The position numbers and the translations under genes were made by a program. The notes below the pieces were generated by a model. It was not told the origin of the DNA and searched no databases. It saw only the letters and a program-made list of their open reading frames with translations. A DNA stretch of 32,239 bases from a virus: IMG/VR virus record IMGVR_UViG_3300005663_000143, positions 1 to 32,239 of that record. One strand, written 5' to 3'. How positions within the stretch are numbered: the stretch's first letter is position 1; every line of letters begins with the position of its first letter. Shown piece after piece: positions 2,304-26,376 of this stretch.

Positions 2304-2321
2304 GCCACGCCCTCACGTGGC
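2304..2321 (-). promoter_or_regulatory. TGAGGG-loop leader hairpin (minus strand copy 1)
   Basis: On the minus strand GCCACG-TGAGGG-CGTGGC forms a perfect 6-bp stem with a six-base loop. The ribosome site GGGAGGGGGAGA and an ATG (2288) follow at once. The TGA in the loop is also the stop codon of the NlpC-like gene. It has the same loop but a different stem from the copies at 3212-3229, 4589-4606 and 6143-6158, so the pairing is conserved while the stem sequence is not. Confidence 0.65.
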
Positions 2322-2954
2322 TATGTCGAAATCCCTCACGGTTGAGTAGCTGTCGGCCCACACGAGGTGCCAGTCCCGCACCTGGCAGTGGTCCAACATG
2401 TCGTCCGGCGACACCAGGTTGGGCAATTCACCGAACCGATAATTCAATACCCTCTTGTACACGTACGCGACGAGCCAACTGCAGATTGGGTAGTCATCCA
2501 GGCGCGCGAGTCGACGGAACACGTAGCGGTCTTTGACGAGCAAATGATCGAGCGCGTGCACGATGATTTTCAGGTACCCGTACCTGTGCTTGAGGTATTT
2601 GATAGCCTGCTCGCGCATCACCACGCGCTCCGACGACAACAGTCCGTGCGGGAGCCGAATTACCATCACGTCAGCCTCGCCCCGATAGGAATCGATGCGC
2701 CGAATCACGACCGTTCGGAGCGCCTCGATGAGAGACTGGCGCTCGGGATCCAGCACCATCCCAACATGTGATGCGAACGTGGGAGCCTCGCCGACCGACC
2801 GGCTGAACCAGCAGATGAGCCGAGAGATCCGACCCCGGCCCCGCACGAATACGAGATCACCGGTCTCGAACTCAACTCGGTCGATTCGATCCCACCCGAC
2901 CGGAATGCGTGAGGTGAGGGAAAACTGAAGCGGGATGCCCGGGAGCCCAACCAT
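2313..2954 (-). CDS. Permuted NlpC/P60-like (YiiX/BtrH-type) papain-fold enzyme
   Basis: The 213-residue protein has the layout of the circularly permuted NlpC/P60 group. GDLVFVRG (32-39) opens the barrel, ASHVGMVLD (61-69) supplies the histidine near the N-terminus (H63), and YPICSWLVAYVY (155-166) supplies the cysteine (C158) near the C-terminus. The order His then Cys is the reverse of ordinary NlpC/P60 enzymes. Members cut amide or ester bonds in peptides, cell wall or lipids. The ATG at 2954 overlaps the TGA of the previous gene and has GAGGTGG seven bases upstream. There is no signal peptide. It could be a peptidoglycan-active or host-takeover enzyme; the substrate cannot be read from sequence. 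Confidence 0.7.
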   Translation of the reverse strand: MVGLPGIPLQFSLTSRIPVGWDRIDRVEFETGDLVFVRGRGRISRLICWFSRSVGEAPTFASHVGMVLDPERQSLIEALRTVVIRRIDSYRGEADVMVIRLPHGLLSSERVVMREQAIKYLKHRYGYLKIIVHALDHLLVKDRYVFRRLARLDDYPICSWLVAYVYKRVLNYRFGELPNLVSPDDMLDHCQVRDWHLVWADSYSTVRDFDIAT

Positions 2955-3187
2955 CACTCGGCCACCTCGAGCCCAACGAGCCCCCGGATCCGCGGGATCT
3001 TGTCGGAGCGACAAAGGGGCGTCGGGAGCCTGGTTCCGGTATGGGCCTTATGCCACGCGGTCGCGGCAGGCTGATGGCCGCACACGAGACATTCCTCCCA
3101 ACCGAGGATCTTGCGGTGGCGACGGAAGCGACGGATGACGTACGTGTGGCCGAGACGTCGGCAGATGAATCGTCGGAAGTACGTCAC
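2954..3187 (-). CDS. Small zinc-binding-type protein, first gene of leftward operon
   Basis: This 77-residue basic protein starts MTYFRRFICRRLGHTYV and contains C-x-x-x-x-GH and later CLVCGH, a four-ligand Cys/His set that could hold one zinc ion. Many arginines suggest nucleic-acid contact. The GTG start at 3187 has the ribosome site AGGAGGGGGAGTC and, further upstream, the TGAGGG-loop hairpin. It is the first gene after the divergent control region, a place where phages often put early host-directed or regulatory proteins. Function unknown. Confidence 0.6.
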   Translation of the reverse strand: MTYFRRFICRRLGHTYVIRRFRRHRKILGWEECLVCGHQPAATAWHKAHTGTRLPTPLCRSDKIPRIRGLVGLEVAE

Positions 3188-3211
3188 GACTCCCCCTCCT
3201 GTGCGCGACCC

Positions 3212-3229
3212 GTCGGACCCTCATCCGAC
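3212..3229 (-). promoter_or_regulatory. TGAGGG-loop leader hairpin (minus strand copy 2)
   Basis: On the minus strand GTCGGA-TGAGGG-TCCGAC is a perfect 6-bp stem with the six-base TGAGGG loop. It is followed about 10 bases later by AGGAGGGGGA and the GTG start at 3187. Loop and position match three other hairpins in the window, while the stem sequence differs. Confidence 0.65.
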
Positions 3230-3264
3230 TGACGCGAAAGAGAACTTGCGTTGCGTGTTCAGGC

Positions 3265-3293
3265 AGCATGCGTGATGTGACCGGTTAGGTCAA
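3265..3293 (-). promoter_or_regulatory. Candidate leftward promoter
   Basis: On the minus strand TTGACC (3288-3293) stands 17 bases from CATGCT (3265-3270). The first is a good -35 match and the second a weak -10. Transcription would start near 3258, about 70 bases before the GTG of the first leftward gene, leaving the TGAGGG hairpin in the leader RNA. Confidence 0.45.
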
Positions 3294-3444
3294 GCAACTC
3301 CGCACCCGAACCAAAACTGTATGGAGGTGGCCGGGAACCTCGATCGCTTGGATGGCTGACGAGATTCCCGGCGCCAGAGGATCCATACGAACTCAACGTA
3401 GCATAGATGAGTTCGCCGGACCTAATCATACCCACAAAAGAGAA

Positions 3445-3487
3445 GGCCGCGAGGAAAGGAGGGGGAACCTCGCAAAACCTCGCGGCC
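3445..3487. promoter_or_regulatory. 10-bp stem-loop holding an orphan Shine-Dalgarno
   Basis: GGCCGCGAGG (3445-3454) pairs perfectly with CCTCGCGGCC (3478-3487). The loop contains AAAGGAGGGGGAA, a very strong ribosome site, but no start codon follows at usable distance. CCTCGC occurs twice (3468-3473 and 3478-3483), so GCGAGG (3449-3454) can pair with either copy, giving two competing hairpins. On the minus strand the stem is followed by TTCTCTTTTGT, so it could also act as an intrinsic terminator for leftward transcription. Confidence 0.5.
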
Positions 3488-3523
3488 AAACTCGTCGGGT
3501 ATCCGGCTACTGCGTTCACCTAC

Positions 3524-3541
3524 CGACTGAGGGGAAGGAGG
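3524..3541 (+). promoter_or_regulatory. Linear TGAGGG leader element, copy 1
   Basis: CGACTGAGGGGAAGGAGG lies 8 bases before the GTG of the 20-codon frame at 3550. Its end is the Shine-Dalgarno site itself. Near-identical copies occur at 4455, 7139, 21723 and 26360, and a shortened one at 3666. Confidence 0.7.
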
Positions 3542-3549
3542 AGAACTCG

Positions 3550-3612
3550 GTGTACCCGAGCAACACTATGACACAAGACTACGGAGGCAGTCAATTCCTG
3601 TGGGCCGGGTAG
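3550..3612 (+). CDS. Micro-ORF of 20 codons behind a leader element
   Basis: GTG at 3550 opens a 20-codon frame ending TAG, with product VYPSNTMTQDY followed by GGSQFLWAG. An ATG six codons in could also be used. It is placed exactly as larger genes are relative to the ACTGAGGGG element, with AGGAGG eight bases before the GTG. It may be a real micropeptide or a leader; nothing in the sequence suggests a function. Confidence 0.35.
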   Translation: MYPSNTMTQDYGGSQFLWAG

Positions 3613-3665
3613 GACTTCATTGCTTCGAACCATAGGCCCCCGTCACAATTCAGGAATCTATCACC

Positions 3666-3678
3666 CTGAGGGGAAGGA
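3666..3678 (+). promoter_or_regulatory. Linear TGAGGG leader element, copy 2 (short form)
   Basis: CTGAGGGGAAGGA precedes the ATG at 3688 by about ten bases. The leading CCGA of other copies is replaced by ACC, so this is the most diverged linear copy. The Shine-Dalgarno part reads AAGGAAG. Confidence 0.6.
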
Positions 3679-3687
3679 AGACACCAG

Positions 3688-4011
3688 ATGCCCGAGCCAC
3701 ACGTATTCCGTCTGCAGTTGATCGCGACACCCGGGGAGCAGGAAGGCGACCTCGAGGCCGTACTCCTGGTGGAGCTGCCGCCAGGGGAGTTTGACCCGCT
3801 GGACTACCTAGCGTTCCTGCACGCAGGCCAAAACAAGACCGGGGCGCTGTTCGAGGAAGAGCTCGGCAGGGTTGCAACCACGTACGCTGAACTCCAGGGC
3901 CTGACGGTCGAGCAGGCGCGCATTGAACTGCTTGACGTTGTGTGCAATGAGGCAGGTCTTGCGCTGGGAGCCGGCGGCAAGGAAGAGCAGAGGATTATTC
4001 TTGCCGATTAG
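3688..4011 (+). CDS. Hypothetical acidic protein
   Basis: The 107-residue product is not recognised. It is acidic, starts MPEPHVFRLQLIA, and contains VLLVELPPGEFDPLDYLAFLHAG. A helical C-terminal half follows (EEELGRVATTYAELQGLTVEQARIELL). No cysteines suited to metal binding, membrane segments or nuclease motifs are visible. The start follows the short leader element with AAGGAAG seven bases upstream. It is the first long rightward gene and is followed by an AT-rich gap, so it seems to be its own unit near the integration and control region. Confidence 0.65.
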   Translation: MPEPHVFRLQLIATPGEQEGDLEAVLLVELPPGEFDPLDYLAFLHAGQNKTGALFEEELGRVATTYAELQGLTVEQARIELLDVVCNEAGLALGAGGKEEQRIILAD

Positions 4012-4236
4012 GCGGCTGGAAACAAAATTGAATAGAACGCTCTTTAGTCTACTACAAAGGTCCCATAAGATTATTCATGGGGGGTTATGTTTATTCTTCT
4101 CTCTAAAACCTCTTGATCATGCTTTCAATTCTTATTTTCTACCTGTACTTGAATACTAAACTTGGAACGGTTCTTTCGTAGCTTGAAACTTATGTACTTA
4201 AAGGTCGGGGATTCGGCGAGGGGTGAATCGACACGA

Positions 4237-4267
4237 TTGGGCACGGGACCTGGGGTTGTGCTACATT
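4237..4267 (+). promoter_or_regulatory. Candidate rightward promoter, extended -10
   Basis: TGCTACATT (4259-4267) contains TACATT as a -10 box with the TGn extension. TTGGGC (4237-4242) could be a weak -35 at 19-base spacing. Transcription would begin near 4273 and read through the small gene at 4482 into the excisionase and integrase genes. Confidence 0.4.
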
Positions 4268-4277
4268 GATTTTGGTC
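4267..4277 (+). repeat. TGATTTTGGTC, copy upstream of integrase cassette
   Basis: The same 11 bases occur again at 5969-5979, just past the integrase gene. Both copies are preceded by CTAC (CTACAT here, CTAC there). A pair flanking the xis-int cassette fits arm-type integrase-binding sites. Chance is possible for an 11-mer. Confidence 0.35.
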
Positions 4278-4454
4278 ATCGGGAGATGCGGTGCAACTGC
4301 TCTTCCGCTCGGCTGCGTGCTCCTTCGGTCAGGAGGTGGGGCGCGCAGGCTCTATGGGGACGTTGTATCGGGGTAGGTTTGAGTGCTCGATGCGGCGTCC
4401 TTTGCTCGGGGGGTAAACAGGATACCGGGACCCGAAAAAGATGTTTTGCACGTA

Positions 4455-4472
4455 CGACTGAGGGGAAGGAGG
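4455..4472 (+). promoter_or_regulatory. Linear TGAGGG leader element, copy 3
   Basis: CGACTGAGGGGAAGGAGG stands about ten bases before the ATG at 4482 and supplies its ribosome site. It is identical over 18 bases to the copies at 3524 and 7139. Confidence 0.7.
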
Positions 4473-4481
4473 GCCAGATCG

Positions 4482-4580
4482 ATGAAGCGTCTGATCCGAT
4501 TCATCCGGCTGGTCTGCGGGGCCGGCATCCGGAACGCCTGGAGGCTCTCGAGGTATCCGGAGCCAATACCGTTCGACTGA
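4482..4580 (+). CDS. Small basic hypothetical protein
   Basis: The 32-residue product begins MKRLIRFIRLVCGAG and ends PEPIPFD. It is strongly basic with alternating hydrophobic residues, so it may form an amphipathic helix that binds nucleic acid or membrane. The ATG is placed about nine bases after GGAGGG, within the standard leader arrangement. No longer frame has a comparable start. Not recognised. It sits between the possible attP region and the excisionase gene, where small regulators are common. Confidence 0.45.
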   Translation: MKRLIRFIRLVCGAGIRNAWRLSRYPEPIPFD

Positions 4581-4588
4581 CACTGTCT

Positions 4589-4606
4589 CGCGACTGAGGG
4601 GTCGCG
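4589..4606 (+). promoter_or_regulatory. TGAGGG-loop leader hairpin (plus strand copy 1)
   Basis: CGCGAC-TGAGGG-GTCGCG is a perfect 6-bp stem with the six-base loop. It is followed by AAAGGAGGGGGA and the ATG at 4623. It has the same loop as the minus-strand hairpins at 2304 and 3212. Confidence 0.7.
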
Positions 4607-4622
4607 GGCCAAAGGAGGGGGA

Positions 4623-4649
4623 ATGCAGATCCCTGGGGCAGTAACATGA
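4623..4649 (+). CDS. Eight-codon leader peptide overlapping the excisionase start
   Basis: ATG at 4623 follows the strongest ribosome site in the region and encodes MQIPGAVT. Its TGA overlaps the ATG of the next gene (ATGA at 4646-4649). The excisionase-like gene has no ribosome site of its own closer than this, so ribosomes probably reach it by termination-reinitiation through this peptide. That would tie excisionase translation to the leader hairpin. Confidence 0.4.
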   Translation: MQIPGAVT

Positions 4650-4960
4650 AGGCTGAGTTCCTGACGGTCCAGGAGCTCGCGGACGTCTTCGGCGTCCACT
4701 ACCAAACCGCCTGGCATTGGGTGCACGACGGGAAGGTCCCGAGCGTCCGTATCGGTTCCCGCGCCCGAATTCCCCGCCAGTGGGTAGAGGAGGTAAAGAG
4801 TGCCGCGATCGAAGCAACCGTTTCACCCGCGAGCGACGAAGCTGGGGAGCGGAAAGTGGGTAGTGGACTGCCGAGCCTGGCGCAACTTTTTACGTTCGTG
4901 GGGTTGCCCCGTGCGGCCCGAGTTCTGGACCGAGGAGGCGGCGCTCCATCGGGTGCGTGA
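4646..4960 (+). CDS. Excisionase-like HTH protein (MerR/HTH_17 type)
   Basis: The 104-residue frame starts MKAEFLTVQELADVFGVHYQTAWHWVHDG and continues through KVPSVRIGSRARIPRQWVEEV. This is a winged HTH of the excisionase/MerR_17 DNA-binding family, in which a small protein binds near the attachment site and steers integrase toward excision, or acts as a repressor. The recognisable domain ends at about residue 50, exactly where the integrase start codon lies. The remaining 53 residues are encoded in another frame inside the integrase gene and look unstructured. The start is coupled to the eight-codon leader by ATGA. The overlap of 161 bases with int is unusually long. Confidence 0.7.
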   Translation: MKAEFLTVQELADVFGVHYQTAWHWVHDGKVPSVRIGSRARIPRQWVEEVKSAAIEATVSPASDEAGERKVGSGLPSLAQLFTFVGLPRAARVLDRGGGAPSGA

Positions 4961-5924
4961 GCTCGATGCCTACTATCTGATGGGTGGACCTCCGGTCCTT
5001 CAGGAACGTGTTTCGCTGACGGAGCTGCGGGATTTGTTTCTGGCCTCGCGGCAAGCGGACGGGCTCTCGTGGCAAACGATTTTGAAATACCAGCGTGAGA
5101 CCGAGACGTTTGTCGGTTACGCCAAGACGCGTGGGTGGCGGTACGTGGACCAGATCAACACATCGCAGTTCACTCAGTTTAAGGTCAACCAGGTGGCGCT
5201 CGGGCTAGCCCTCCGGACGGTCTATCTGCAGTGCAGTATCGTTCGGGCGTTCTTCAGCTTTGCGGAGCAGATGGGTTATGTTACGACTAACCCGGTCAAG
5301 GGCGCGATGCCAGCTCGCTCGACCGAGCAGGCGAATCGATCGTTGACCGACGAAGAGCGCACCACCATCTGGGAGTTCGGTGGGATCCGTAGTCCGGTGT
5401 GGCGTCTCATGCTCGCGACCGGATGCCGTCGCTCCGAATTGTGCAAGCTCGCCTCGGCGTCGTTCGAGTTCACCGCGATCCCGCATCCGTTCGTCCGACT
5501 CAACGGCAAGGGGAAGGTACGTAACTTTCCGCTGTCGCCCGGGACGGTCGACCTTGCCCACGAGTTCATCGCGGTCGCCCCGACGCTACGCGGCCCGAGT
5601 GCTCATCCGATCGCGGCAGACTCCGTGTGGGCCCCGGAGTATTCCAACACGTTGCTCGGGATCCTACCGATAGCGCTCAGCGGGTGGTGGCTCGCCGACC
5701 GGGGCGTGATGGGGTTGGCGGACGATGTTGTGATGCACACACTGCGGCATGACTTCGCAACGTCGGTGGTGGCGCGGTCAGGTGTTCGGGCGGCGCAGCA
5801 GCTCTTGGGTCACGCGGACATCCGGACGACCGTGCAGTACGACCACACTTCAGACGATATATTGCTGGCGGCGGTCAGTGAATATGGCGCATTCTTGTCA
5901 GCGCGGAAAACAGCGAACTCGTAA
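4800..5924 (+). CDS. int: Tyrosine recombinase, phage integrase
   Basis: This 374-residue integrase would cut and rejoin DNA at attP and attB through a 3'-phosphotyrosine link. All catalytic positions are visible: R210 in TGCRRSEL, a lysine in the beta hairpin (NGKGK, 235-239), H313 and R316 in HTLRHD, H338 in LLGH, and Y347 in VQYDHT. Residues about 70-165 form the SAM-like core-binding domain. The first 60 residues would be the arm-binding part. Start: GTG at 4800 with GAGGAGGTAAAGA directly upstream, inside the excisionase frame. The C-terminus overlaps one copy of a 17-bp repeat. The protein looks intact, so the phage is, or recently was, able to integrate. Confidence 0.92.
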   Translation: MPRSKQPFHPRATKLGSGKWVVDCRAWRNFLRSWGCPVRPEFWTEEAALHRVRELDAYYLMGGPPVLQERVSLTELRDLFLASRQADGLSWQTILKYQRETETFVGYAKTRGWRYVDQINTSQFTQFKVNQVALGLALRTVYLQCSIVRAFFSFAEQMGYVTTNPVKGAMPARSTEQANRSLTDEERTTIWEFGGIRSPVWRLMLATGCRRSELCKLASASFEFTAIPHPFVRLNGKGKVRNFPLSPGTVDLAHEFIAVAPTLRGPSAHPIAADSVWAPEYSNTLLGILPIALSGWWLADRGVMGLADDVVMHTLRHDFATSVVARSGVRAAQQLLGHADIRTTVQYDHTSDDILLAAVSEYGAFLSARKTANS

Positions 5925-6121
5925 GTGTCGACGATAAAGAGGAAAATGCTTGCGCACGATGGTACTACTGATTTTGGTCGCAGCGTTGACGACGTTGGTC
6001 GGCAATCGGCGCAAACCCTTGTCCCCGTTGGGTCAGCGGGAAATCACCTTGCGGCCCCGTAACCATCATTTTTAGTCCGCTTTAGCCTAATTCACCCGGG
6101 TTACTGGCGCATTCTTGTCAG
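5885..6121 (+). repeat. 17-bp direct repeat pair at integrase 3' end
   Basis: TGGCGCATTCTTGTCAG occurs at 5885-5901, inside the last codons of int, and again at 6105-6121 in the following gap. CGCGG follows both copies (directly in the first, after TGG in the second). The copies are 220 bases apart. A duplicated int tail next to int suggests a core attachment site, a scar of past integration or module exchange, or a duplication. Confidence 0.75.
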
Positions 6122-6142
6122 TGGCGCGGCCAGAACTACCCA
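5925..6142 (+). other. Gap after integrase, possible tiny frame
   Basis: The 5' part can encode a 38-residue peptide from an ATG at 5946 (weak site AAAGAGG) to TAA at 6060-6062. It is in the same frame as the integrase, so suppression of the int stop would extend the integrase by 45 residues. I see no family resemblance and do not call it a gene. The gap also holds the second TGATTTTGGTC (5969-5979), the second 17-bp repeat, and a short AT-rich patch around 6065-6095. It may be the right half of the attachment region. Confidence 0.3.
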
Positions 6143-6158
6143 CCGACTGAGGGGTCGG
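6143..6158 (+). promoter_or_regulatory. TGAGGG-loop leader hairpin (plus strand copy 2)
   Basis: CCGAC-TGAGGG-GTCGG is a perfect 5-bp stem with the six-base loop, followed by AAAGGAGAGGGGAACCA and the ATG at 6180. The left side equals the linear elements (CCGACTGAGGGG), so this copy links the linear and hairpin forms. Confidence 0.7.
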
Positions 6159-6179
6159 GGATAAAGGAGAGGGGAACCA

Positions 6180-6698
6180 ATGATCATCTATCTCGCTGGC
6201 GGGATGCACTCCGGCTGGCAGGACCGCGTCATGGCCGCGGTCCCGGACCACAGCTATATCAACCCCGCGCAACACGGGCTCAAGCCGCCGGCCCAGTACG
6301 CCTTCTGGGACATGCTCGGCATCCAACACGCCGACCTGATCTTCGCCTACGTCGAGCAGGACAACCCGTCGGGTATCGGGGCCGCGTTCGAGATCGGTTA
6401 CGGACTCGGGCTGGGCAAGCGGGTCATTCTGGTGGACCGCAAGTCGCTCCGGGATGAGTCGTTCCAGAAGTACGCCGCCATCATACAGCACGCCGGGCCG
6501 ATCGTACTTGAGACTCTCAACGATGGGATCACGATGCTGGAATCCATCGCGCGGCTCGCCGCAATGGTTCGGTGGTCTCCGGGCGACACCCAGAAGGCGA
6601 TCGACGCTTTTACCCCGGGGGCGGCTTTTGGGGCTCGGGGAGAAGTTGATTGCACCGACCCCGATCCGGAGTCCACGGTAGGGGGCGATCAGCGATGA
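6180..6698 (+). CDS. Nucleoside 2-deoxyribosyltransferase-like protein
   Basis: The 172-residue protein has the layout of the nucleoside 2-deoxyribosyltransferase fold, which swaps bases between deoxynucleosides or cuts the N-glycosidic bond. IIYLAGGMHSG (2-12) is the nucleotide-binding start. ADLIFAYVEQDNPSGIGAAFEIGYGLGLGK (51-80) carries the family signature, with E71 as the likely nucleophile. Residues after about 130 form a tail rich in Gly, Asp and Pro without known function. The start is the ATG behind the leader hairpin. A second protein with a related fold is encoded at 26870. Likely role: changing the deoxynucleotide pool, host or viral. The exact reaction cannot be told. Confidence 0.75.
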   Translation: MIIYLAGGMHSGWQDRVMAAVPDHSYINPAQHGLKPPAQYAFWDMLGIQHADLIFAYVEQDNPSGIGAAFEIGYGLGLGKRVILVDRKSLRDESFQKYAAIIQHAGPIVLETLNDGITMLESIARLAAMVRWSPGDTQKAIDAFTPGAAFGARGEVDCTDPDPESTVGGDQR

Positions 6699-6868
6699 AG
6701 GCTTACGAGATGCGGCGACTCAAACTCGAAGAGCAGAAGGTCGAGCATCTCAAGCGTCTCGCCGACAGCCTACGGTACATTGAGGAGTTCGTAGGCGGGG
6801 GGTTCTACGTGACTGAAGCTAGTGGCGGAAACCGTCACCGGTTTTTCGTGGAGCCGAAGCGCAGCTGA
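6695..6868 (+). CDS. Small hypothetical protein with helical N-terminus
   Basis: The 57-residue product starts MKAYEMRRLKLEEQKVEHLKRLADSL, a charged helix that could form a short coiled coil. It ends in a possible small beta part (GGFYVTEASGGNRHRFFVEP). The ATG overlaps the stop of the deoxyribosyltransferase-like gene by ATGA, so the two are probably translated together. No family recognised. Confidence 0.6.
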   Translation: MKAYEMRRLKLEEQKVEHLKRLADSLRYIEEFVGGGFYVTEASGGNRHRFFVEPKRS

Positions 6869-6880
6869 GGAGGGGGAACC

Positions 6881-7126
6881 TTGAATATCATCGAGCGTCT
6901 GCTCGGCAGTAAGGATGAGGTCATGCGGAAGGTCGGTCGCGACCTGCTCCGCGCCTGGAAGCCGCCCAAGATCCACCGGCATAACGGCCGTGAGAAGGCC
7001 ACTCTACCCAAGCGTCTGTCGAGCGGGGAACGCCGACGCAAGAGGCGCGTAGTCGCTGCCTCCCGACGCCACAACCGAAAGAGGCCCGTCCGCAGGCATC
7101 GAATGCGGGTTCACACCAGCAAGTAG
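6881..7126 (+). CDS. Small very basic protein
   Basis: This 81-residue product has over a third Arg, Lys and His in its C-terminal half (GERRRKRRVVAASRRHNRKRPVRRHRMR), so it very likely binds DNA or RNA. The start is TTG at 6881, preceded by AGGAGGGGGAACC, a textbook ribosome site. No ATG or GTG fits. The N-terminal 25 residues (NIIERLLGSKDEVMRKVG) look helical. It could be a DNA-compacting or host-regulating protein. No domain recognised. Confidence 0.55.
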   Translation: MNIIERLLGSKDEVMRKVGRDLLRAWKPPKIHRHNGREKATLPKRLSSGERRRKRRVVAASRRHNRKRPVRRHRMRVHTSK

Positions 7127-7138
7127 CGCGTTCAAATC

Positions 7139-7156
7139 CGACTGAGGGGAAGGAGG
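7139..7156 (+). promoter_or_regulatory. Linear TGAGGG leader element, copy 4
   Basis: CGACTGAGGGGAAGGAGG precedes the ATG at 7166 by nine bases and includes its ribosome site. It is identical over 18 bases to the copies at 3524 and 4455. Confidence 0.7.
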
Positions 7157-7165
7157 GCTGGTCCT

Positions 7166-7996
7166 ATGGGCCGGTTTGTAGACAAGAGTAATCCACCCGA
7201 CTACCGCACCATCTCGTACGGCGGTGGCGTCCAGTCAACCGCCATGATCGCGCTCAGTGTCCTGGGGGAGATCGAGCCGGCTGCCGATTGCGCGATCTTC
7301 GCCGACACCGGCTGGGAGCCCGCGCCGGTCTACGAGACCGTCAGGTGGATGACCGAGTGGGCGGCCGAGCGAGGCTTCACGATCCATACGGTTTCGGTCG
7401 GGAACATCCGCGACGACTTCCTGCACGCGACCCGGTTCGCTGCGATCCCGTTCTTCACCAAGCACCCTGACAAGAAGCGCGAGGGACGACTCCGTCGGCA
7501 GTGCACCCGCGAGTACAAGATCGATCCGATCTGTCGGAAGATCCGCGAGCTCCTCGGGTACAAAAAGTACGCGAAGACTAAGCACCTCGTCGAGACCTGG
7601 CTCGGCATTTCGACCGATGAGGTCTTTCGGATCAAGCAGTCGCGACTGCCTTGGCAGATCAACCGCCATCCGCTGATCGAGCTCAGCATGTCGCGCCAGG
7701 ATTGTATCGATTGGCTCGCCGACAACGACTTCCCGCCCGTCATGAAGTCCAGCTGCATCGGCTGCCCCTACCACAACAATGCCTTCTGGCGCTACATGAA
7801 GACCGACTGGCCGGAGGACTGGGAGGACGTCTGCAGCTTCGACGAAGCGATTCGTGACTTCGACAAGCGCCGGCGTGGTGGGGTGGAGTCGAAGCTCTAC
7901 ATCCACCGGAGCTGCCAGCCGCTTCGCGATCTCGATCTATCCGAGGAGAACCTCGATCTCGAGGGGGAAGAGTGTTCGGGCTATTGCTTCGTGTGA
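7166..7996 (+). CDS. PAPS-reductase-like PP-loop (adenine nucleotide alpha hydrolase) protein
   Basis: The 276-residue protein carries a PP-loop, SYGGGVQST (17-25), as in PAPS reductases and other adenine nucleotide alpha hydrolases that activate a substrate by cutting ATP or bind an adenylylated sulfur carrier. AIFADTGWE (43-51) and QCTREYKI (112-119) are also typical of the phage branch. Several cysteines (C113, C123, SSCIGC with C197 and C200, C250, and ECSGYC with C270 and C274) could hold an iron-sulfur cluster. True assimilatory reductases keep only a single essential Cys, so this is probably not a sulfate-assimilation enzyme. Sulfur or amine transfer onto a nucleic acid base is plausible but unproved. 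The start follows a leader element. Confidence 0.75.
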   Translation: MGRFVDKSNPPDYRTISYGGGVQSTAMIALSVLGEIEPAADCAIFADTGWEPAPVYETVRWMTEWAAERGFTIHTVSVGNIRDDFLHATRFAAIPFFTKHPDKKREGRLRRQCTREYKIDPICRKIRELLGYKKYAKTKHLVETWLGISTDEVFRIKQSRLPWQINRHPLIELSMSRQDCIDWLADNDFPPVMKSSCIGCPYHNNAFWRYMKTDWPEDWEDVCSFDEAIRDFDKRRRGGVESKLYIHRSCQPLRDLDLSEENLDLEGEECSGYCFV

Positions 7997-8003
7997 GGCC
8001 GTT

Positions 8004-8762
8004 ATGGGGCTGAAGGTTAAGGCGTTCGACATCGCGCTCAAGCGTGCCGTGGAGCATGACGGGGGCACCGGTGTACTGGGGGGTTGCGACCTCGCGGGGG
8101 TGTTCCGCCGCGCCCCGTCGACTCGGGAAGTCGTGCGTGAAGTCAAAACCCACACGATCGAGACCCTGACGGCATGGCTCCACCGGGGGGTGCTGGCGAG
8201 CAAGCTGTTGTCGGGTCAGTACTGCACCACGATGGGGGTGGCTCGTTCGGAAGAGCGGTGTCGCGCGCTCGAGAATGGCGTCGGGGATCGGCTGCTCGCG
8301 AAGGTGGAGCGCTCCCCTGAGGGGTGTTGGATCTGGGCCGGCCACGCCGGTCGGGGTCACACGTGCCCGCAGCCAAAGCTGGGACTCGGCGGTACCTCGG
8401 TTTCGGCCCGGCGTGCCGCGGTTGAGCTCACCTACGGAGCGGTTCCGGACGGCATTCAGATCTTCAACATCTGCGGGGACCAGCTATGTCTGGCCCCGGA
8501 GCACCAGGGGGCTCGACCGCAGCGGTGGAACGTGCAGCAGGTCGGTCATCCTAGCGGCATCCACTGTGGAAACGCCCGCATCAACTTCGAAATCGCGCAG
8601 GAGATCCGTGAGGCGTACACGACGCAACCACGTCGCGTCCGGGGTGGCCGGGGGGTTTCGCTGGTCGAGCTTGCTGCACAACACGACATTTCAATTTCGA
8701 CGGTACGCCAGGTCCTGACGGGACGGACGTGGCGCCGGCCGGATGAAGGAGGGGGAGCATGA
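8004..8762 (+). CDS. HNH-fold protein with missing catalytic histidine, plus HTH
   Basis: The 252-residue protein contains the HNH_3-type layout: GCWIWAG (107-113), ARRAAVELTYGAVPDG (135-150), then IFNICGDQLCLAPEHQ (153-168). In active members this last part reads V-x-H-x-C-x-N-x-x-C-x-N-P-x-H. Here the general-base His is Asn155, the usual middle Asn is Asp, and the AHR of the preceding helix is ARR. The structural cysteines C157 and C162 and the last His167 remain. Residues about 190-245 resemble an HTH (VELAAQHDISISTVRQVLTG), as in nuclease-associated DNA-binding tails. Residues 1-80 are unrecognised. It looks like a DNA-binding protein derived from a homing-type nuclease, with nicking activity probably lost. 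The start at 8004 has only a weak ribosome site. Confidence 0.7.
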   Translation: MGLKVKAFDIALKRAVEHDGGTGVLGGCDLAGVFRRAPSTREVVREVKTHTIETLTAWLHRGVLASKLLSGQYCTTMGVARSEERCRALENGVGDRLLAKVERSPEGCWIWAGHAGRGHTCPQPKLGLGGTSVSARRAAVELTYGAVPDGIQIFNICGDQLCLAPEHQGARPQRWNVQQVGHPSGIHCGNARINFEIAQEIREAYTTQPRRVRGGRGVSLVELAAQHDISISTVRQVLTGRTWRRPDEGGGA

Positions 8763-9761
8763 AGATTATTGAGCGCGTGGAGGTCCCGACGGGGGACATC
8801 CTGGTGGTTCAGGGCGACTACGGTTCACTCGAGCTGTTGTCCCTGGGGGACTACGGGAAGGGCGTCAACGTCAAGTGTGACGCGATGGGGTTGACGCGCC
8901 CGCTCGGTACGGTGCAGCACACCGATCTGTTGCCGCTTTACCAGAAGTGGGTCATCACGATCTCGACCCAGTACGGCTGCTCGATGGGTTGCAATTTCTG
9001 CGACGTACCCAAGGTGGGGCCGGGGAAGAACGCCACCCTGAACGACATGATCCGGCAGGTGCAGATGGGGCTGGCGCTCCACCCGGAGGTCCCGTGGAGC
9101 GACCGGCTGAATATTCACTTTGCCCGGATGGGGGAACCGACTTGGAACCCCCATGTTCTCAACGCGGCCTGTTGGTTCTACGACCACCTCTGGCCGGCGT
9201 ACCGAGTTCATCCGGTGGTCTCCACGATGATGCCGCGCCACAACGTCTATCTGCGCGACTTCCTGCAGCGTTGGCTGGAGGTAGTCAAGAACGACATCTA
9301 CCGGGGCAACGCGGGGCTGCAGCTGAGTATCAACTCGACGTCGGAGACCGAGCGTGTCGACATGTTCAACGGCAACGCACTATCGCTCGCCGATATCGGT
9401 CAGATGCTGGAGGGGTTGGCGGACCCGCTCGGGCGGAAGATCACGCTCAACTTCGCGCTCGCCGGGTACGAGATCGATCCGTATGTGCTGCGGCGCTACT
9501 TCGATCCCGCCCACTACCTGATCAAGCTCACCCCGATGCACCGCACCGATGCGGCGCTGGGCAACGGGATCGAGACCGAGGGCGACTACACCACGTTCGA
9601 GCCCTACCGATGGACCGAGGAGCGGCTGGTTGAACACGGCTACGACGTTCTGGTCTTCATCGCTTCTCGCGAGGAGGATGAGGGGCGGATCACCTGTGGG
9701 AACGCGCTGCTCTCGGGCACACGTCCCTTTGATTTGACCGAAGGAGGGGGAGCATGAAGAT
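8745..9761 (+). repeat. 22-bp direct repeats around the radical SAM gene starts
   Basis: The 22 bases 8745-8766 are repeated exactly at 9740-9761. Each copy spans the end of one gene, the ribosome site GAAGGAGGGGGA, and the start of the next gene (ATGAAGAT). The HNH and radical SAM proteins therefore both end in EGGGA, and the radical SAM and Mre11 proteins both begin MKI. The repeats bound the radical SAM gene exactly. Confidence 0.8.
8759..9757 (+). CDS. RlmN/Cfr-like radical SAM enzyme, short form
   Basis: The 332-residue protein resembles the RlmN/Cfr family, which methylates an adenine in RNA by a radical route. ISTQYGCSMGCNFCDVP (68-84) holds the 4Fe-4S cysteines C74, C78 and C81 in the order Cx3Cx2C. 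ARMGEPTWN (122-130) matches the MGEP motif that binds S-adenosylmethionine. LQLSINSTSETERVD matches the S-x-H-x-x-x-x-x-x-R region with the histidine changed. ITCGNALL near the C-terminus supplies C313, which aligns with the methyl-carrying cysteine of RlmN. The second RlmN cysteine, seven residues before the first cluster cysteine, is Thr67 here. The N-terminal RNA-binding domain of RlmN is absent. The substrate could be an unusual RNA, or DNA. Confidence 0.75.
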   Translation: MKIIERVEVPTGDILVVQGDYGSLELLSLGDYGKGVNVKCDAMGLTRPLGTVQHTDLLPLYQKWVITISTQYGCSMGCNFCDVPKVGPGKNATLNDMIRQVQMGLALHPEVPWSDRLNIHFARMGEPTWNPHVLNAACWFYDHLWPAYRVHPVVSTMMPRHNVYLRDFLQRWLEVVKNDIYRGNAGLQLSINSTSETERVDMFNGNALSLADIGQMLEGLADPLGRKITLNFALAGYEIDPYVLRRYFDPAHYLIKLTPMHRTDAALGNGIETEGDYTTFEPYRWTEERLVEHGYDVLVFIASREEDEGRITCGNALLSGTRPFDLTEGGGA

Positions 9762-10764
9762 CGCACATTGTTCAGACGTACACCTGGGGTTCGGGCGGTT
9801 CGGTGGTGCCCGGAGCGCCCGCCGCAAGGAGGACGTGATCAACTGCTTCCTCGCGGCGGTCGACACGATCATCGATCGGGGCTGTCGGGTGGCTCTGTTT
9901 CCGGGCGACTTTTTCGACAGCCCTGACCCCGATAACGAAACCCTACTCGCGGCTATTACGGGCATCACCCGTCTGACCCGCGAGGGGATCTCGGTACGGA
10001 TTATTTCCGGCCAGCACGATACGCCCAAGTCTGAACGGTGTCATATCTTCGCCGCGCTGCAGGCCACGGATTCAACCGGTCGGCTGCAGATGATGCACGC
10101 CGGCGAGTTCACCGAGGACATCGACGGCTTCCGTTTCGTCTACCAGGGCTGGGACAACATCCCGCTCGACTGGGCCGCGCTCCCTGAGGGCGACTTCCTG
10201 GTGGTGCACGCGCCCTACCCGCCAGCGATTTTCAGTGACCGACATCCGCGGGCTATCTACGAGGGCATCCCGGACAACTGGTCCTACCTGGCGCTCGGCG
10301 ACTGGCATGAGCGTAAGGAGATCATGCCCGGCGCCTGGTACAGCGGCGGCCTCGAGCGGCTCAATTTTGGTGAGCAGGGCTCGGACTGCGGAATCCTGGT
10401 CATCGACACCGATACCGGCGAGGTGACGCCCTGGGATTCTCCGGCCCGCGAGCTCATCACGATCGACTTCGACCTCGATACCTGGGACCGCCCGGAGGAA
10501 AAGCTGCGGGAGGTGCTGGAGGGGTTTGAGTCGGCTGCGATTCGGCTCCGGATGGCAGGAGATCCGACCCGGATCGATCCGAAGTGTCTCGATTTCCACC
10601 CGCTGATCCAGCGGGAGTTTCTTGGTCGCCCCGACGTGGCAGCCCAGGTCAACCTGGGCACCGCAGAGGTCGCGACCTCCTGGGAGGAATTTTGCAACCG
10701 GCAGAAGCTATCTCCTCAGGTGTTCCGGTACGGCCGCCACTTTTTGAGGGAGATTGGACGATGA
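9754..10764 (+). CDS. sbcD: Mre11/SbcD-type nuclease subunit (T4 gp47-like)
   Basis: This 336-residue calcineurin-type phosphoesterase pairs with the Rad50-like protein two genes on, to process DNA ends for recombination. Motifs: DVHLG (8-12), PGDFFD (50-55), SGQHDT (85-90), VVHAP (150-155), LGDWHE (181-186) and YSGGLERLNFGE (196-207). Compared with standard Mre11, the Asn ligand of GNHD is Gln87 and the first His of GHxH is Asp183. Both remain able to bind metal, but the change of two of the seven ligands is unusual. The C-terminal third is a capping domain and Rad50-binding tail. The ATG overlaps the previous gene by ATGA. Confidence 0.88.
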   Translation: MKIAHCSDVHLGFGRFGGARSARRKEDVINCFLAAVDTIIDRGCRVALFPGDFFDSPDPDNETLLAAITGITRLTREGISVRIISGQHDTPKSERCHIFAALQATDSTGRLQMMHAGEFTEDIDGFRFVYQGWDNIPLDWAALPEGDFLVVHAPYPPAIFSDRHPRAIYEGIPDNWSYLALGDWHERKEIMPGAWYSGGLERLNFGEQGSDCGILVIDTDTGEVTPWDSPARELITIDFDLDTWDRPEEKLREVLEGFESAAIRLRMAGDPTRIDPKCLDFHPLIQREFLGRPDVAAQVNLGTAEVATSWEEFCNRQKLSPQVFRYGRHFLREIGR

Positions 10765-10997
10765 CTAACGATTTCGAGTTCAAACCAATCCCTCTCAGTG
10801 AATTCTTGGGTGACGGCCCTTCGCTTTCGCCTCCGGTGCACCGGTGCGAAGCCTGCGGGCGCCCGGCGCTCTGCTGCGAAGAAGCTTTTCGGCCGGGTGT
10901 GTTGAGTTGTGAGGTCAACCAGTTCGTTAGTGCCACGGCTACCGTTGCCACCTTGCTGTCCGCACTGCGACGCCGCACGAAGGAGCTTGGACGATGA
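10761..10997 (+). CDS. Small zinc-type protein between sbcD and sbcC
   Basis: The 78-residue product starts MTNDFEFKPIPLSEFLGDG and has HRCEACGRPALCCEEAF, a CxxC-x5-CC group that may bind zinc, then a helical tail (VSATATVATLLSALRRRTKEL). It overlaps both neighbours by ATGA, so the sbcD, this gene and sbcC form one coupled unit. It might help the nuclease complex, but no family is recognised. Confidence 0.6.
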   Translation: MTNDFEFKPIPLSEFLGDGPSLSPPVHRCEACGRPALCCEEAFRPGVLSCEVNQFVSATATVATLLSALRRRTKELGR

Positions 10998-12871: not shown

Positions 12872-13047
12872 AGACTCTGTGGGTATGCCGGCGACTTCGA
12901 GTTCTCTGGTACGACTATCACAATTTTCGACTGGTTCCGTTTCGCCTCTCTCGCTGGCGGGCGCTTTCGGTGGCCGTGTCGTTCCCGAGCGCGACTGATG
13001 TCTGGGACCTTAGCGTACTTGAGTTTTTAAAAGGGAAAATTCGATGA
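12868..13047 (+). CDS. Small hypothetical basic protein
   Basis: The 59-residue product begins MKTLWVCRRLRVLWYDYHNF and is rich in Arg and aromatic residues. It is not recognised. Its ATG overlaps the sbcC stop by ATGA and has the ribosome site GGTGGAGGAGG upstream. Its own stop overlaps the next start. The tail (LEFLKGKIR) uses AT-rich codons. It lies inside the segment bounded by the 25-bp repeats, so it may be a recent addition. Confidence 0.5.
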   Translation: MKTLWVCRRLRVLWYDYHNFRLVPFRLSRWRALSVAVSFPSATDVWDLSVLEFLKGKIR

Positions 13048-15109: not shown

Positions 15110-15111
15110 CG

Positions 15112-15131
15112 AAAGTTTCCGAGGAAACTTT
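15112..15131 (+). terminator. Short stem-loop after the helicase gene
   Basis: AAAGTTTC (15112-15119) pairs with GAAACTTT (15124-15131) around CGAG, three bases after the helicase stop codon. The stem is AT-rich and the following TCGTTTCGG is only mildly T-rich, so it is a weak intrinsic terminator at best. Confidence 0.4.
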
Positions 15132-15209
15132 TCGTTTCGGTGAGAAGTTCGTTGAAGGCTGACCCGGTTGTCCCGCACACTGCCAGGTCTTACAGGAGGG
15201 GGAACTCCA

Positions 15210-21227: not shown

Positions 21228-21724
21228 TGGCCCCGGCCCGCCGTCCGGTCGAGGAGACAATGAATATCGTCGACTGGGGGAAGTTCGAGGTTGAGTTGTT
21301 CGACATCGACTCCGAGAACATCGGGGAGGAGCTGCAGAAGCAGCCGGCGCTTTTGGCGTTCTGGTCCGTACGACTCGCGGATGCCGAGACGTTGCTGCAG
21401 GAATCGAAGTATGCCTTGGAACAGGCCGAAGCTGTCGCATGGGTGCGGGTGAAGGCCAAGTTGCGAAGGGAGGAGCTGGACGAACAGAGGGGCCGTGTGA
21501 CCGAAGCGGACGTGAAGGCCGAAGTGGCCCAGGATCCCGAGGTCCGTAGTGCCCAGGAAGCCCTAATGCAGGACGAGTATCGCCAGCGCCAGTATCGAGC
21601 TGTGGTTCGTGCTCTCGACCAGAAGGGAATCATGATGTGTTCCCGGATCAAGCTGTTGATCGCCGAGCTCGAAGCCACGATGCAGAAGCGTCGGTTGAGT
21701 AACGTACAACCCAAACAACACTGA
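21206..21724 (+). CDS. Putative UvsY-like recombination mediator
   Basis: The 172-residue, mostly helical protein starts inside the polymerase 3' end; a second ATG at 21260, with GAGGAG close by, is also possible. Its layout follows T4 UvsY: an early stretch of alternating helices (LLAFWSVRLADAETLLQESKYALEQAEA), VTEADVKAEVAQDPEV in the middle, and a C-terminal RQRQYRAVVRALDQKGIMMCSRIKLLIAELEA that resembles the UvsY ending. UvsY loads the UvsX recombinase onto gp32-coated single strands. It lies directly before the gp32-like and UvsX-like genes, as expected for this job. Similarity is by pattern and context only. Confidence 0.55.
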   Translation: MAEREGLVAPARRPVEETMNIVDWGKFEVELFDIDSENIGEELQKQPALLAFWSVRLADAETLLQESKYALEQAEAVAWVRVKAKLRREELDEQRGRVTEADVKAEVAQDPEVRSAQEALMQDEYRQRQYRAVVRALDQKGIMMCSRIKLLIAELEATMQKRRLSNVQPKQH

Positions 21725-21738
21725 CTGAGGGGAAGGAA
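21723..21738 (+). promoter_or_regulatory. Linear TGAGGG leader element, copy 5
   Basis: GACTGAGGGGAAGGAA begins at the stop codon of the previous gene and lies 6 bases before the ATG of the ssDNA-binding protein at 21745. A copy located 14 kb away from the early cluster shows that the element is not limited to the integration region. Confidence 0.65.
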
Positions 21739-22563: not shown

Positions 22564-22565
22564 CC

Positions 22566-24590: not shown

Positions 24591-25588
24591 TGGCTTATAC
24601 GCACAGGGCGCCTCCGTCGCTGGACGGGAAGCACGTTCTTGTGACCGGGGGCGGGGGCTTCATCGGCTCGCGATTGGTTGAGCTCCTTCTTGCTCGCCGC
24701 TCCCCCGCGTCACTGACGGTGGTCGACAAGTTCACTTACGCCGGCGACAGGGAGAACCTTAGTGACGTGCGGGATCAGATCATCCTGAAGGAACTGGATG
24801 TGTGCGACGAGGCCATCGGCTTCAGCGTGAAGCGACCCGATGTGATCTTTCACCTCGCGGCCGAGACCCATGTGGACCGCTCCATCGAGAATGGTCTCCC
24901 GTTCGCCCAGGTGGATTTCTACGGGACCGCGGTCATGCTCGAGTGGGCCCGCCAGTGGGGTTCACGGTTCGTCTTTGTGTCGACCGACGAGGTCTACGGC
25001 GACATGCAGACGCGCGCGATAGATGTCGCTACGGAGGACACCGCGCTGGCCCCGACCAACCCGTACAGCGCCGCAAAGGCGGGCGCGGACTTCTTGGTTC
25101 AGGCGTACCACCGAACCCATGGTCTGGACACGGTAATCCTACGCCCGGCAAACCAGTACGGGCCGCGGCAGTACCCGGAGAAGCTGTTCCCCCGCTTCGT
25201 GTATCTCGCGATGTCGGGACAGAACCTCACCGTGCACGGTGACGGATCTCAGCTCCGCGAGTTCACCCACGTGAGCGACGGGGCCATGGGGATCCTGCTT
25301 GCCGGCGAGCGAGGTGCCAGCGGATCCATTTTCAACATTGCATCCGAGGAGTACATGACCGTCAGTGAAGTTGCGTTGGCGGTCCTGCACCACTTCGGGT
25401 TGGAGGAGACCAAGATCACCTACGTCGAGGACCGGCCGGGCGGTGACGCGCGTTACAGCATTTCTTCGGAGCGCGCTCGGATGGAACTGGCGTGGGCGCC
25501 GAGGATCCCCCTCGATCGTGGTGTGTCTCACACGATCGGTTACTACGCCGGCAAGTGGACCGGAGAATTACCCGAGGTGGCGGCATGA
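24590..25588 (+). CDS. rmlB: dTDP-glucose 4,6-dehydratase-like (RmlB) enzyme
   Basis: The 332-residue short-chain dehydrogenase/reductase has VTGGGGFIGS (18-27, NAD-binding), HLAAETHVDRSIE (88-100), STDEVYGD (131-138) with the dehydratase-specific D133 and E134 after T132, and YSAAK (159-163) with catalytic Tyr and Lys. This order is that of RmlB, which makes dTDP-4-keto-6-deoxyglucose, the first committed step to L-rhamnose and other deoxysugars. The next gene is an RmlC-like cupin with ATGA overlap, so the two work as a pair. RmlA and RmlD are not in this window; the host can supply them. Confidence 0.87.
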   Translation: MAYTHRAPPSLDGKHVLVTGGGGFIGSRLVELLLARRSPASLTVVDKFTYAGDRENLSDVRDQIILKELDVCDEAIGFSVKRPDVIFHLAAETHVDRSIENGLPFAQVDFYGTAVMLEWARQWGSRFVFVSTDEVYGDMQTRAIDVATEDTALAPTNPYSAAKAGADFLVQAYHRTHGLDTVILRPANQYGPRQYPEKLFPRFVYLAMSGQNLTVHGDGSQLREFTHVSDGAMGILLAGERGASGSIFNIASEEYMTVSEVALAVLHHFGLEETKITYVEDRPGGDARYSISSERARMELAWAPRIPLDRGVSHTIGYYAGKWTGELPEVAA

Positions 25589-26067
25589 GTCTGGTCGGAG
25601 AGTGCCTGCCGGGAGTGAAGCTGCAACCCGTGAAAAGGAACGCTGACGACCGGGGGTTTCTAACCGAGATCCTTCGGGCGGATGATCGTGACTTTCGTCA
25701 GTTCGGGCAAGCCTACATCACCCATTGTCATTTTGGTGCTGTGAAGGCCTGGCACGAGCACGCAATCCAGACCGACTGCTTCTTTTGCGTGCAGGGCACG
25801 ATGAAGGTCGGACTTGTCGATCTGCGGCGCGGTCTCGCCGAGAACTCGTATATGAGTTGGGCCTACGCCATCTTGGGCGAAAAGGGTTCGGACGCACGGC
25901 TCTGGATCCCGCCCGGAGTCGCCCACGGTTTCACACCGTTGTCACGCGACGGGGCCACGATCCTCAACCTGCCGTCGCACCCGTACGACCGGGAGAATCC
26001 CGATGAGCTTCGCCACCAGTGGGACGAGTTCACGGGGCCGGAGTTCTGGGAGACGGAGAACCGATGA
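25585..26067 (+). CDS. rmlC: RmlC-like sugar 3,5-epimerase (cupin)
   Basis: The 160-residue cupin follows RmlB, whose keto-sugar product is the substrate of RmlC. DDRGFLTEI (21-29), KAWHEHAIQTDCFFCVQGTMKVGLVDLR (54-81) and IPPGVAHGFTPLS (108-120) match the RmlC pattern, with H57 near the position of the catalytic base and H114 in the AHGF motif. It may epimerise at C3 and C5 or at C3 only, giving rhamnose or another 6-deoxysugar. Residues 125-160 are a charged tail. Exact product is uncertain. Confidence 0.72.
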   Translation: MSLVGECLPGVKLQPVKRNADDRGFLTEILRADDRDFRQFGQAYITHCHFGAVKAWHEHAIQTDCFFCVQGTMKVGLVDLRRGLAENSYMSWAYAILGEKGSDARLWIPPGVAHGFTPLSRDGATILNLPSHPYDRENPDELRHQWDEFTGPEFWETENR

Positions 26068-26354
26068 CACGATTCGACGAGTTTGAGGAGCGCTTCCACG
26101 CGATGTCGGACCCGACATGTCGTGTGGAGGGGGACCACGGGATGCCGAATGTTGTCGACGAGGCGTTCGCCGAATTCCAGGTGGATCTCCTGACGATGCT
26201 GGAGAACGGCGAAGTGGGCGCGCTCCACATCACCGCGATGGGGATGGCGCTGGCGGTGAAGGGGTTGACCGCGATGGAATTCTGCCCGGCCTGTGAGATC
26301 GGCCACTGGGTGGACAACATTCACGAATCTGTTGGGTGCGCAAACGAGCAATAG
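26064..26354 (+). CDS. Hypothetical protein with Cys motif
   Basis: The 96-residue product starts MTRFDEFEERFHAMSDPTCRVEG, is acidic and helical in the middle, and ends FCPACEIGHWVDNIHESVGC, a CxxC-x-H-type group that may bind zinc. Its ATG overlaps the RmlC-like stop. A leader element follows its stop codon, so it is the last gene of this unit. No family recognised. Confidence 0.55.
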   Translation: MTRFDEFEERFHAMSDPTCRVEGDHGMPNVVDEAFAEFQVDLLTMLENGEVGALHITAMGMALAVKGLTAMEFCPACEIGHWVDNIHESVGCANEQ

Positions 26355-26358
26355 CCTA

Positions 26359-26376
26359 CCGACTGAGGGGAAGGAG
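26359..26376 (+). promoter_or_regulatory. Linear TGAGGG leader element, copy 6
   Basis: CCGACTGAGGGGAAGGAG lies eight bases before the ATG at 26385, after CTA as in the first copy (CTACCGACTGAGGGG). It opens a new translation unit after the sugar genes. Confidence 0.7.

Follow-up and report, generated by a model that had tools for sequence, protein, structure and literature searches.

A repeated element with the loop TGAGGG (UGAGGG in the mRNA) precedes translation starts on both strands of a phage represented in IMG/VR by the virus record IMGVR_UViG_3300005663_000143, whose 32,239 bases are the stretch analyzed here (hereinafter the window). Comparison of its copies supports it well as an RNA hairpin element that has been selected in many leaders of this one phage: the loop is fixed, the stem is free in sequence and covaries, and, given this combination, compensating changes within one genome suffice to show an RNA hairpin that is read via its loop. 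TGAGGG recurs in this way before the start codons of some of the genes, and in their orientation, in 28 leaders, although these were chosen by a downstream Shine-Dalgarno sequence (SD), so that the orientation is partly by choice. Eighteen of them (four in the window) have the hairpin and ten (six in the window) a linear form, in which the same CUGAGGGG runs directly into the SD (CUGAGGGGAAGGA).

The larger set comes from a 117,123-base contig, IMGVR_UViG_3300005253_000361 (hereinafter the parent record, or record), which was surveyed whole. It was found through an IMG/VR scan for the linear core CGACTGAGGGGAAGG, which returned 29 stretches, six of them in the parent record: four of these are the window's own leaders and two are new. 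The window corresponds to bases 103,370 to 71,132 (reverse) of this contig, with three differences in 32,239. The parent record is a tailed phage, since it codes for a large terminase, portal, major head protein, tail fibre, DNA polymerase A, DnaB-like helicase, integrase and single-strand DNA-binding protein (SSB). Gene starts in it are the calls of a simple custom gene caller (202 predicted proteins), and all copies of the element come from one phage population.

A fixed loop on covarying stems

Sixteen hairpins were aligned without gaps; the copies at record positions 997 and 107759, where additional bases adjoin the loop, were left out. Their 96 stem cells comprise 84 Watson-Crick pairs, 10 G·U, one A·C and one other combination (94 of 96 paired); all six base pairs are altered on both sides in some copy, with two-sided differences in 26 cells, and the loop-closing pair shows all four Watson-Crick types. 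In the loop, T9 to G13 (UGAGG) are invariant and the last G (G14) is kept in 15 of 16 copies. The covariation score of 0.949 compares with 0.259 ± 0.056 in shuffles and was reached by none of 500, and sliding the 3′ arm by one to three columns lowers pairing from 98% to 18–46% and the score to at most 0.172. The first-pass annotation, made from the window alone, had read different stems around one loop as a fold under selection; covariation, shuffle tests and the hexamer specificity given below strongly support this.

The aligned copies were partly picked for having stems, and two further tests are independent of that choice. Among predicted genes, TGAGGG lies at least 22 nucleotides (nt) before the start in 18 leaders, of which 11 have stems of at least five pairs, against a maximum of two in 2000 shuffles; nearer copies (<22 nt) have such stems in none of 10. 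This strict test scores 997 (in the far group) and 107759 (in the near group) as stemless. Hairpin and linear forms are thus split by distance from the start. When all TGAGGR sites on both strands were considered, at least five of six Watson-Crick pairs occurred in 12 of 34 sites with an SD and start within 50 nt and in none of the 130 others; when G·U was also counted, the figures were 16 of 34 and 7 of 130.

The composition of the imperfect pairs favors an element that acts as RNA rather than DNA. Seventeen leader copies with at least four of six Watson-Crick pairs (including the linear copy 96228), picked by these pairs only with G·U and A·C unused, contain 10 G·U, one A·C and three other non-Watson-Crick cells; G·U thus exceeds A·C 10 to 1, and duplex DNA has no cause to prefer sense-strand G·U. 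The mRNA strand can form a stem of six base pairs (bp), or of seven if the loop's U1 pairs with G6 and leaves a GAGG tetraloop. In predicted folds of 106 nt, 12 of the 18 hairpin leaders adopt the stem extended by U·G (or U-A) with an exposed GAGG tetraloop, and 997 and 107759 a variant hairpin. Between the 3′ arm of the stem and the SD downstream lie 0–4 nt in 13 of the 16 aligned copies and 11–14 nt in three. The mean unpaired fraction of the stretch after the element is 0.37–0.73 in the 18 hairpin leaders and 0.17–0.65 in the ten linear ones. An imperfect hairpin interrupted by a 2x2 internal loop (CCGAC-UGAGGG-GAAGG) might underlie the linear form, but this is not claimed, as the folds show it in two of ten leaders (65941 and 99843).

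Specificity of the element and searches elsewhere

What exceeds chance in TGAGGG is its position and fold and not the abundance of the hexamer: the bare word is not enriched in the window (25 observed, 21.4 expected). As the loop of a hairpin (stem of at least six, including G·U) it is the commonest 6-nt loop in the record, with 15 occurrences against four for the next, its own reverse complement aside. Without any SD filter, 13 of these 15 precede an SD and start, the two at 6039 and 57828 being the exceptions. In a count of leader stem-loops before an SD over all hexamers, TGAGGG has 11 copies and any other hexamer at most one; across 23 control loci (341,931 bases, each locus shorter than the record), a 6-nt leader loop recurs at most three times per locus. 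A covariance model of the element recovers its 16 members in the record at E-values of 2e-5 to 0.009; the match ranking after them, at record 57815–57836 (18.9 bits, E 0.026), has no SD and start after it, and beyond that none scores above 15.7 bits. The same model gave nothing below E 1 in 18 other loci (265,237 bases; best E 1.3) and no match in five distant capsid loci (66,832 bases). The expectation of further copies in the rest of the genome was borne out by 18 more leaders in the parent record outside the window.

Elsewhere, the 23 stretches with the linear core CGACTGAGGGGAAGG outside the parent record have no TGAGGG hairpin of at least four Watson-Crick pairs, and a pattern of hairpin plus SD retrieved six IMG/VR stretches, all in the parent record, near-identical records possibly being left out. 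The hairpin pattern (the linear form was not scanned there) found four stretches in GTDB genomes, all judged to be chance: in one (L046), TGAGGG is enclosed by a stem of 4 bp, but the site falls within a reading frame of Gly-X-Y repeats with no usable start; two (L048, before the ATG of a 146-codon open reading frame, ORF, and L049, before the TTG of a 174-codon ORF) have no stem; and the fourth (L047) has 2 bp only. Four of the loci searched with the covariance model (L051, L057, L059 and L060) have one TGAGGA stem-loop each, of five to six pairs with G·U, and these were likewise taken for chance.

Searches for relatives of the phage found no close one. Megablast of window positions 1–25000 against 50,697 phage records gave no match; the terminase and exonuclease queries found the parent record only (for the terminase, in IMG/VR), and in the phage collection the terminase had three weak tblastn matches at 29–30% identity. 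The best 5000 matches to the polymerase were all under 60%. Radical SAM, topoisomerase and capsid queries retrieved homologues at 41–66% identity, and the loci of the radical SAM and topoisomerase homologues otherwise share little with the record (single-gene matches, 23–33%). At gathering score, Rfam matched only tRNA in 131,862 bases (with record 78,501–97,500 covered via the window alone); at a lax threshold, window 2000–7300 gave one sub-threshold snoRNA match, and an Rfam family was dropped as an explanation. In the portions of the open-access literature consulted, no element was described in a phage that sets one constant loop on stems of differing sequence ahead of many start codons, which is weak evidence of absence.

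Leaders and genes in the window and the parent record

The window's four hairpins are all perfect and stand where the first-pass annotation had placed them. On the minus strand, GCCACG-UGAGGG-CGUGGC (window 2304–2321; covariance model score 25.9 bits) has a 6-bp stem 1 nt before GGAGGGGG and the ATG at 2288 of an 18-codon ORF (2232–2288, minus), whose stop overlaps, as GTGA, the start of a 63-amino-acid (aa) ORF (2235–2044); GUCGGA-UGAGGG-UCCGAC (3212–3229; 27.2 bits) lies 11 nt before AGGAGGGGG and the GTG at 3187 of a 77-aa ORF extending to 2954. On the plus strand, CGCGAC-UGAGGG-GUCGCG (4589–4606; 26.7 bits) stands 4 nt before AAAGGAGGGGG and the ATG at 4623 of an 8-codon ORF (4623–4649, plus), whose stop overlaps, as ATGA, the start at 4646 of an excisionase-like gene, and CCGAC-UGAGGG-GUCGG (6143–6158; 26.6 bits) precedes AAAGGAGAGGGG and the ATG at 6180 of a 172-aa nucleoside deoxyribosyltransferase-like protein. 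The six linear copies, all on the plus strand, were also found in the sequence, with one coordinate corrected: the last had been placed at 26359, and its CGAC begins at 26360. They comprise CGACTGAGGGGAAGGAG ending in the SD at 3524–3540, before the GTG at 3550 of a 20-codon ORF (3550–3612), and again at 4455–4471, before the ATG at 4482 of a 32-codon ORF (4482–4580); CTGAGGGGAAGG at 3666–3677, before the ATG at 3688 of a 107-aa protein for which no family was found; a copy at 7139–7155, before the ATG at 7166 of a 276-aa PAPS-reductase-like protein; GACTGAGGGGAAGGA at 21723–21737, before the ATG at 21745 of a 272-aa SSB-like protein (gene to 22563); and a copy at 26360–26376, before the ATG at 26385 of a 162-aa RusA-like resolvase. 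The core CGACTGAGGGGAAGG has exactly four exact occurrences in the window (3524, 4455, 7139 and 26360), each followed by AG, while the copies at 3666 and 21723 are without the full CGAC. The first ORF behind four of the ten window leaders is thus very short (18, 20, 32 and 8 codons), and the stop/start overlaps of the 8- and 18-codon ORFs behind two hairpins are consistent with true initiation there and coupling onward.

Over the parent record, the hairpin loops start on the plus strand at 997, 2411, 3133, 3699, 6106, 7586, 12402, 17985, 21669, 100148, 101056, 105960 and 107759 and on the minus strand at 45347, 45749, 46047, 97223 and 98776; the sole changed loop is that of 45347 (TGAGGA), where a possible U-A replaces the U·G pair. 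The linear form CTGAGGGGAAGGA occurs at 11312 and 24650 (plus) and at 36064, 65941, 77007, 81645, 96228, 98912, 99704 and 99843 (minus). Only these ten exact copies were counted, because TGAGGGGAAGGA at up to two mismatches has 25 sites in the record and 42 in the reversed control; the TGAGGG leaders 12651, 13594 and 103548 and the near-copies CCGACTGAGGA before the starts at 37381 and 63499 were kept outside the count as ambiguous. Genes behind hairpin leaders code for a radical SAM protein (838 aa), the nucleoside deoxyribosyltransferase-like protein, the excisionase-like helix-turn-helix protein, GP88 and orphans, and those behind linear leaders for a PC4-like protein, an exonuclease, a glycosyltransferase, RusA, SSB, PAPS reductase and orphans. 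In seven of the 28 leaders the predicted gene upstream ends with the UGA of the element; the element can therefore lie inside operons and need not mark the 5′ end of a transcript, and the idea that the UGA is a functional stop in every copy was dropped, as it is one in these seven only. The SD context itself is unusually uniform before many starts, AAAGGAG(G/A)GGGGAACC (e.g., window 4611–4622, 6163–6178 and 15194–15205), a uniformity that exceeds the need of pairing with the anti-SD.

A second repeat, GGCAANNNTTGCC (GGCAA-NNN-TTGCC), has 19 exact copies in the parent record, the next commonest palindrome of 5 bp and 3 nt having four. The copies lie mainly in record 1–17000 (e.g., L034:276–288, 1455–1467, 11465–11477, 12661–12673 and 15516–15528), and nine directly precede an SD and start. 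Five copies precede a TGAGGG loop by exactly 16 nt and have three bases (GCC) in common with the stem of that loop; the two folds are therefore mutually exclusive and, judging from this overlap, could form a two-input leader switch. A search with this repeat plus SD found one stretch, the parent record, near-identical records possibly being left out.

Some further features lie apart from the leaders. The record yielded a single tRNA gene, a tRNA-Ile (GAT) at 104704–104776. A 972-aa portal gene (record 70559–73477, minus) matches portal families in its N-terminal part and, further on, thymidylate synthase, ribonucleotide reductase and PhoH-like families, a combination suggestive of an intein within the portal. 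A radical SAM protein with no assigned role (window 8759–9757; phrog_24834, 7e-106) has counterparts of 44–66% identity in seven IMG/VR loci of very different G+C, its gene perhaps traveling between unrelated phages. A 17-bp exact direct repeat, TGGCGCATTCTTGTCAG, at window 5885–5901 (inside the end of the integrase gene) and 6105–6121 (about 180 bp behind the integrase) may be part of an attachment site, and a 25-bp exact direct repeat with SD and start, GGAAGGTGGAGGAGGTTCGATGAAG, occurs at window 12849–12873 and 13186–13210, 337 bp apart. The last 30 or so bases of the 117123-base parent record resemble a Nextera transposase adaptor, so that the public sequence probably ends in a library artefact.

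Mode of action and relation to known systems

The reading that we favor, with about even confidence, is that of a cis-acting RNA element at translation initiation whose loop is read by a trans-acting factor, most likely an RNA-binding protein of the phage. Such a factor would recognize the loop UGAGGR, leaving the stem free in sequence. A phage protein is favored because the aligned copies keep UGAGG without exception and the last G in all but one, while pairing of GAGG with the anti-SD needs neither the U nor the last G, and because no other word recurs in the loop's place. In linear leaders the bound factor would cover the SD itself, and in hairpin leaders it would crowd the platform of the 30S subunit, so that some 28 cistrons on both strands would switch together, most likely by repression, activation being possible. 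The leads for such a protein among the Pfam families listed are the PC4-like protein, an ASCH-domain protein and a HicA-like protein; the PC4-like protein (record 24667–24927) and SSB carry linear leaders themselves, and these two are, by analogy and only as a lead, candidate loop-binding factors. A role for SSB has precedent, as the SSB (gp32; PMC535899) and DNA polymerase (gp43; PMC3014915) of T4 are described as autogenous translational repressors. More tentatively, we regard as possible a genome-wide regulon in which one factor acts through UGAGGG, as hairpin or linear form, on about 28 cistrons, some within polycistronic units, with the GGCAANNNTTGCC repeat making a two-input leader switch.

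Several observations weigh against this reading or against a uniform picture of the fold. No CsrA, RegA or Hfq stands among the Pfam families listed (25 of 33 and 25 of 40), which cover 153 of the 202 predicted proteins, and the binding factor is putative. A cruder measure than the covariation score, the count of six pairs with two-sided change, was reached by 12 of 500 shuffles, and the 16 copies are not all independent, five of the hairpin leaders (2411, 3133, 3699, 6106 and 7586) having similar flanks within one phage population. The hairpin at 3699 has a broken stem, those at 997 and 107759 carry extra bases between stem and loop, and the TGAGGG leaders 12651 and 103548 are without a stem. 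In the 106-nt predictions 2411, 3699, 6106 and 98776 have another best fold; with the tandem region folded alone, 2411 and 6106 choose the TGAGGG hairpin and 3699 does not. The ten linear leaders fold mixedly, two with a weak, internally looped hairpin that would include the SD and two burying the motif in other pairing.

Among other explanations, the loop's GAGG might pair directly with the 16S anti-SD as a standby site or second SD while the hairpin keeps the true SD open. The exposed GAGG tetraloop predicted in 12 of 18 hairpin leaders would fit this, as would the linear form with its two SD-like words in succession, yet we think it unlikely: GAGG alone needs neither the invariant U before it nor the near-invariant G after it, no other hexamer recurs in the loop, a strong SD already lies downstream, and the predicted folds leave the region behind the hairpin open only in part. 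Doubtful, too, is a site of mRNA processing or protection or a small-RNA target, whether an endonuclease cut by the SD, a 5′ stabilizer or an antisense to UGAGGG. The endonuclease RegB of T4 cuts in SDs, and a fixed loop adjoining the SD would suit a nuclease. T4 inactivates its early mRNAs with RegB, according to PMC3014915. A small-RNA partner, however, finds no echo in hairpins with a CCCTCA loop, whose number does not exceed that of the TGAGGG hairpins read on the other strand (nine and nine, stem of at least five); no kissing partner with a CCCUCA loop was thus found in that form, and the Rfam matches, to tRNA only, also speak against this reading.

A DNA-level site, be it a promoter, an operator or a promoter formed by a single-strand DNA hairpin, has a counterpart in the extended repeats of cluster K, which are reported to overlap putative promoters (PMC11373665), but is very improbable here, for binding to duplex DNA leaves unexplained both stems that vary freely and covary and the 10-to-1 excess of sense-strand G·U over A·C, and in seven of the 28 leaders the predicted gene upstream ends within the element. 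Chance, or the recent duplication of one leader, is scarcely credible. Some duplication is likely among the five leaders with similar flanks, but these same five differ by compensating stem changes (AGC/GCU, CGC/GCG and GGG/CCC), the remaining eleven, found on both strands, have differing flanks, and the shuffles, coming nowhere near the observed counts, already contradict chance. As for an intrinsic terminator, the run of U that should come after the hairpin is missing from all 16 aligned copies, which have an SD-type sequence in its place.

Among known systems, CsrA/RsmE sites are hexaloop hairpins over SDs with a GGA core. The first-pass annotation had offered a host CsrA-like contact as one possibility; this is unsupported, because the conserved loop UGAGGG is without GGA in 15 of 16 copies and no CsrA domain is among the families listed for the 153 of 202 proteins. 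GGA is present in the sixteenth loop (TGAGGA) and in the SD of the linear form.

The nearest known concept, as had been proposed, is that of the start-associated sequences of cluster K mycobacteriophages, and the claimed difference in sequence and form is upheld. These repeats were described in 2011 (PMC3203893), and their role was still called unclear in 2024 (PMC11373665). Together with their extended form (SAS/ESAS) they are reported as a motif with 10–19 copies per genome, mostly in one orientation, that lies on the SD of some of the genes or shortly before it, the short form at the SD and the extended one upstream, with a proposed role in translation initiation (PMC3203893, PMC7302621, PMC11373665, PMC12699233). 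The TGAGGG element has the same placement as those of cluster K and of the EF actinobacteriophages and likewise two forms; in contrast, SAS is a constant sequence, whereas the TGAGGG element has a fixed loop on a free, covarying stem. The description in PMC3203893 has the cluster K inverted repeats generally not supporting RNA pairing, and in our survey of the right half of Anaya, 16 SAS sites within two mismatches comprised 12 with GGG/CCC ends, four with broken ends and none with compensating changes. Neither the window nor the parent record has a site for the 13-bp cluster K consensus GGGATAGGAGCCC at up to two mismatches, a search that covered this consensus and not that of cluster EF. The TGAGGG element is therefore not the cluster K SAS by sequence or behavior, although, by analogy, it probably serves the same kind of purpose. 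The inverted repeats of clusters O and EG are described as having many copies, many of them intergenic, those of EG typically 14–22 bp upstream of starts (PMC4351075, PMC7302621). With their constant arms and variable center, the cluster O repeats are the reverse of the TGAGGG element; the second repeat of this phage, GGCAANNNTTGCC, is of their kind, with constant arms and a short spacer.

Among phage operators, the TGAGGG element adjoins or overlaps the initiation region, as those of the T4 gp43 and RegA type do, protein binding to it being putative. The gene 43 operator, as an upstream hairpin with a conserved loop, resembles the TGAGGG element by form. In T4 and RB69 it is reported as hairpins of 18 and 16 bases with a conserved loop, to which a protein of the phage binds and so represses its own translation (PMC3014915); it serves one gene per phage and has the loop UAAC, whereas the TGAGGG element heads 28 leaders with the loop UGAGGG. 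RegA of T4 is described as repressing about 30 mRNAs at initiation regions, through sites that are A+U-rich, unstructured and without clear conservation (PMC3014915). The TGAGGG element matches the RegA operators in the scale of the regulon but is instead G-rich and structured, with a strictly conserved loop. If a phage protein binds it, that protein would be a portable regulator that switches many genes at translation, on the scale of T4 RegA but with a clean hairpin target.

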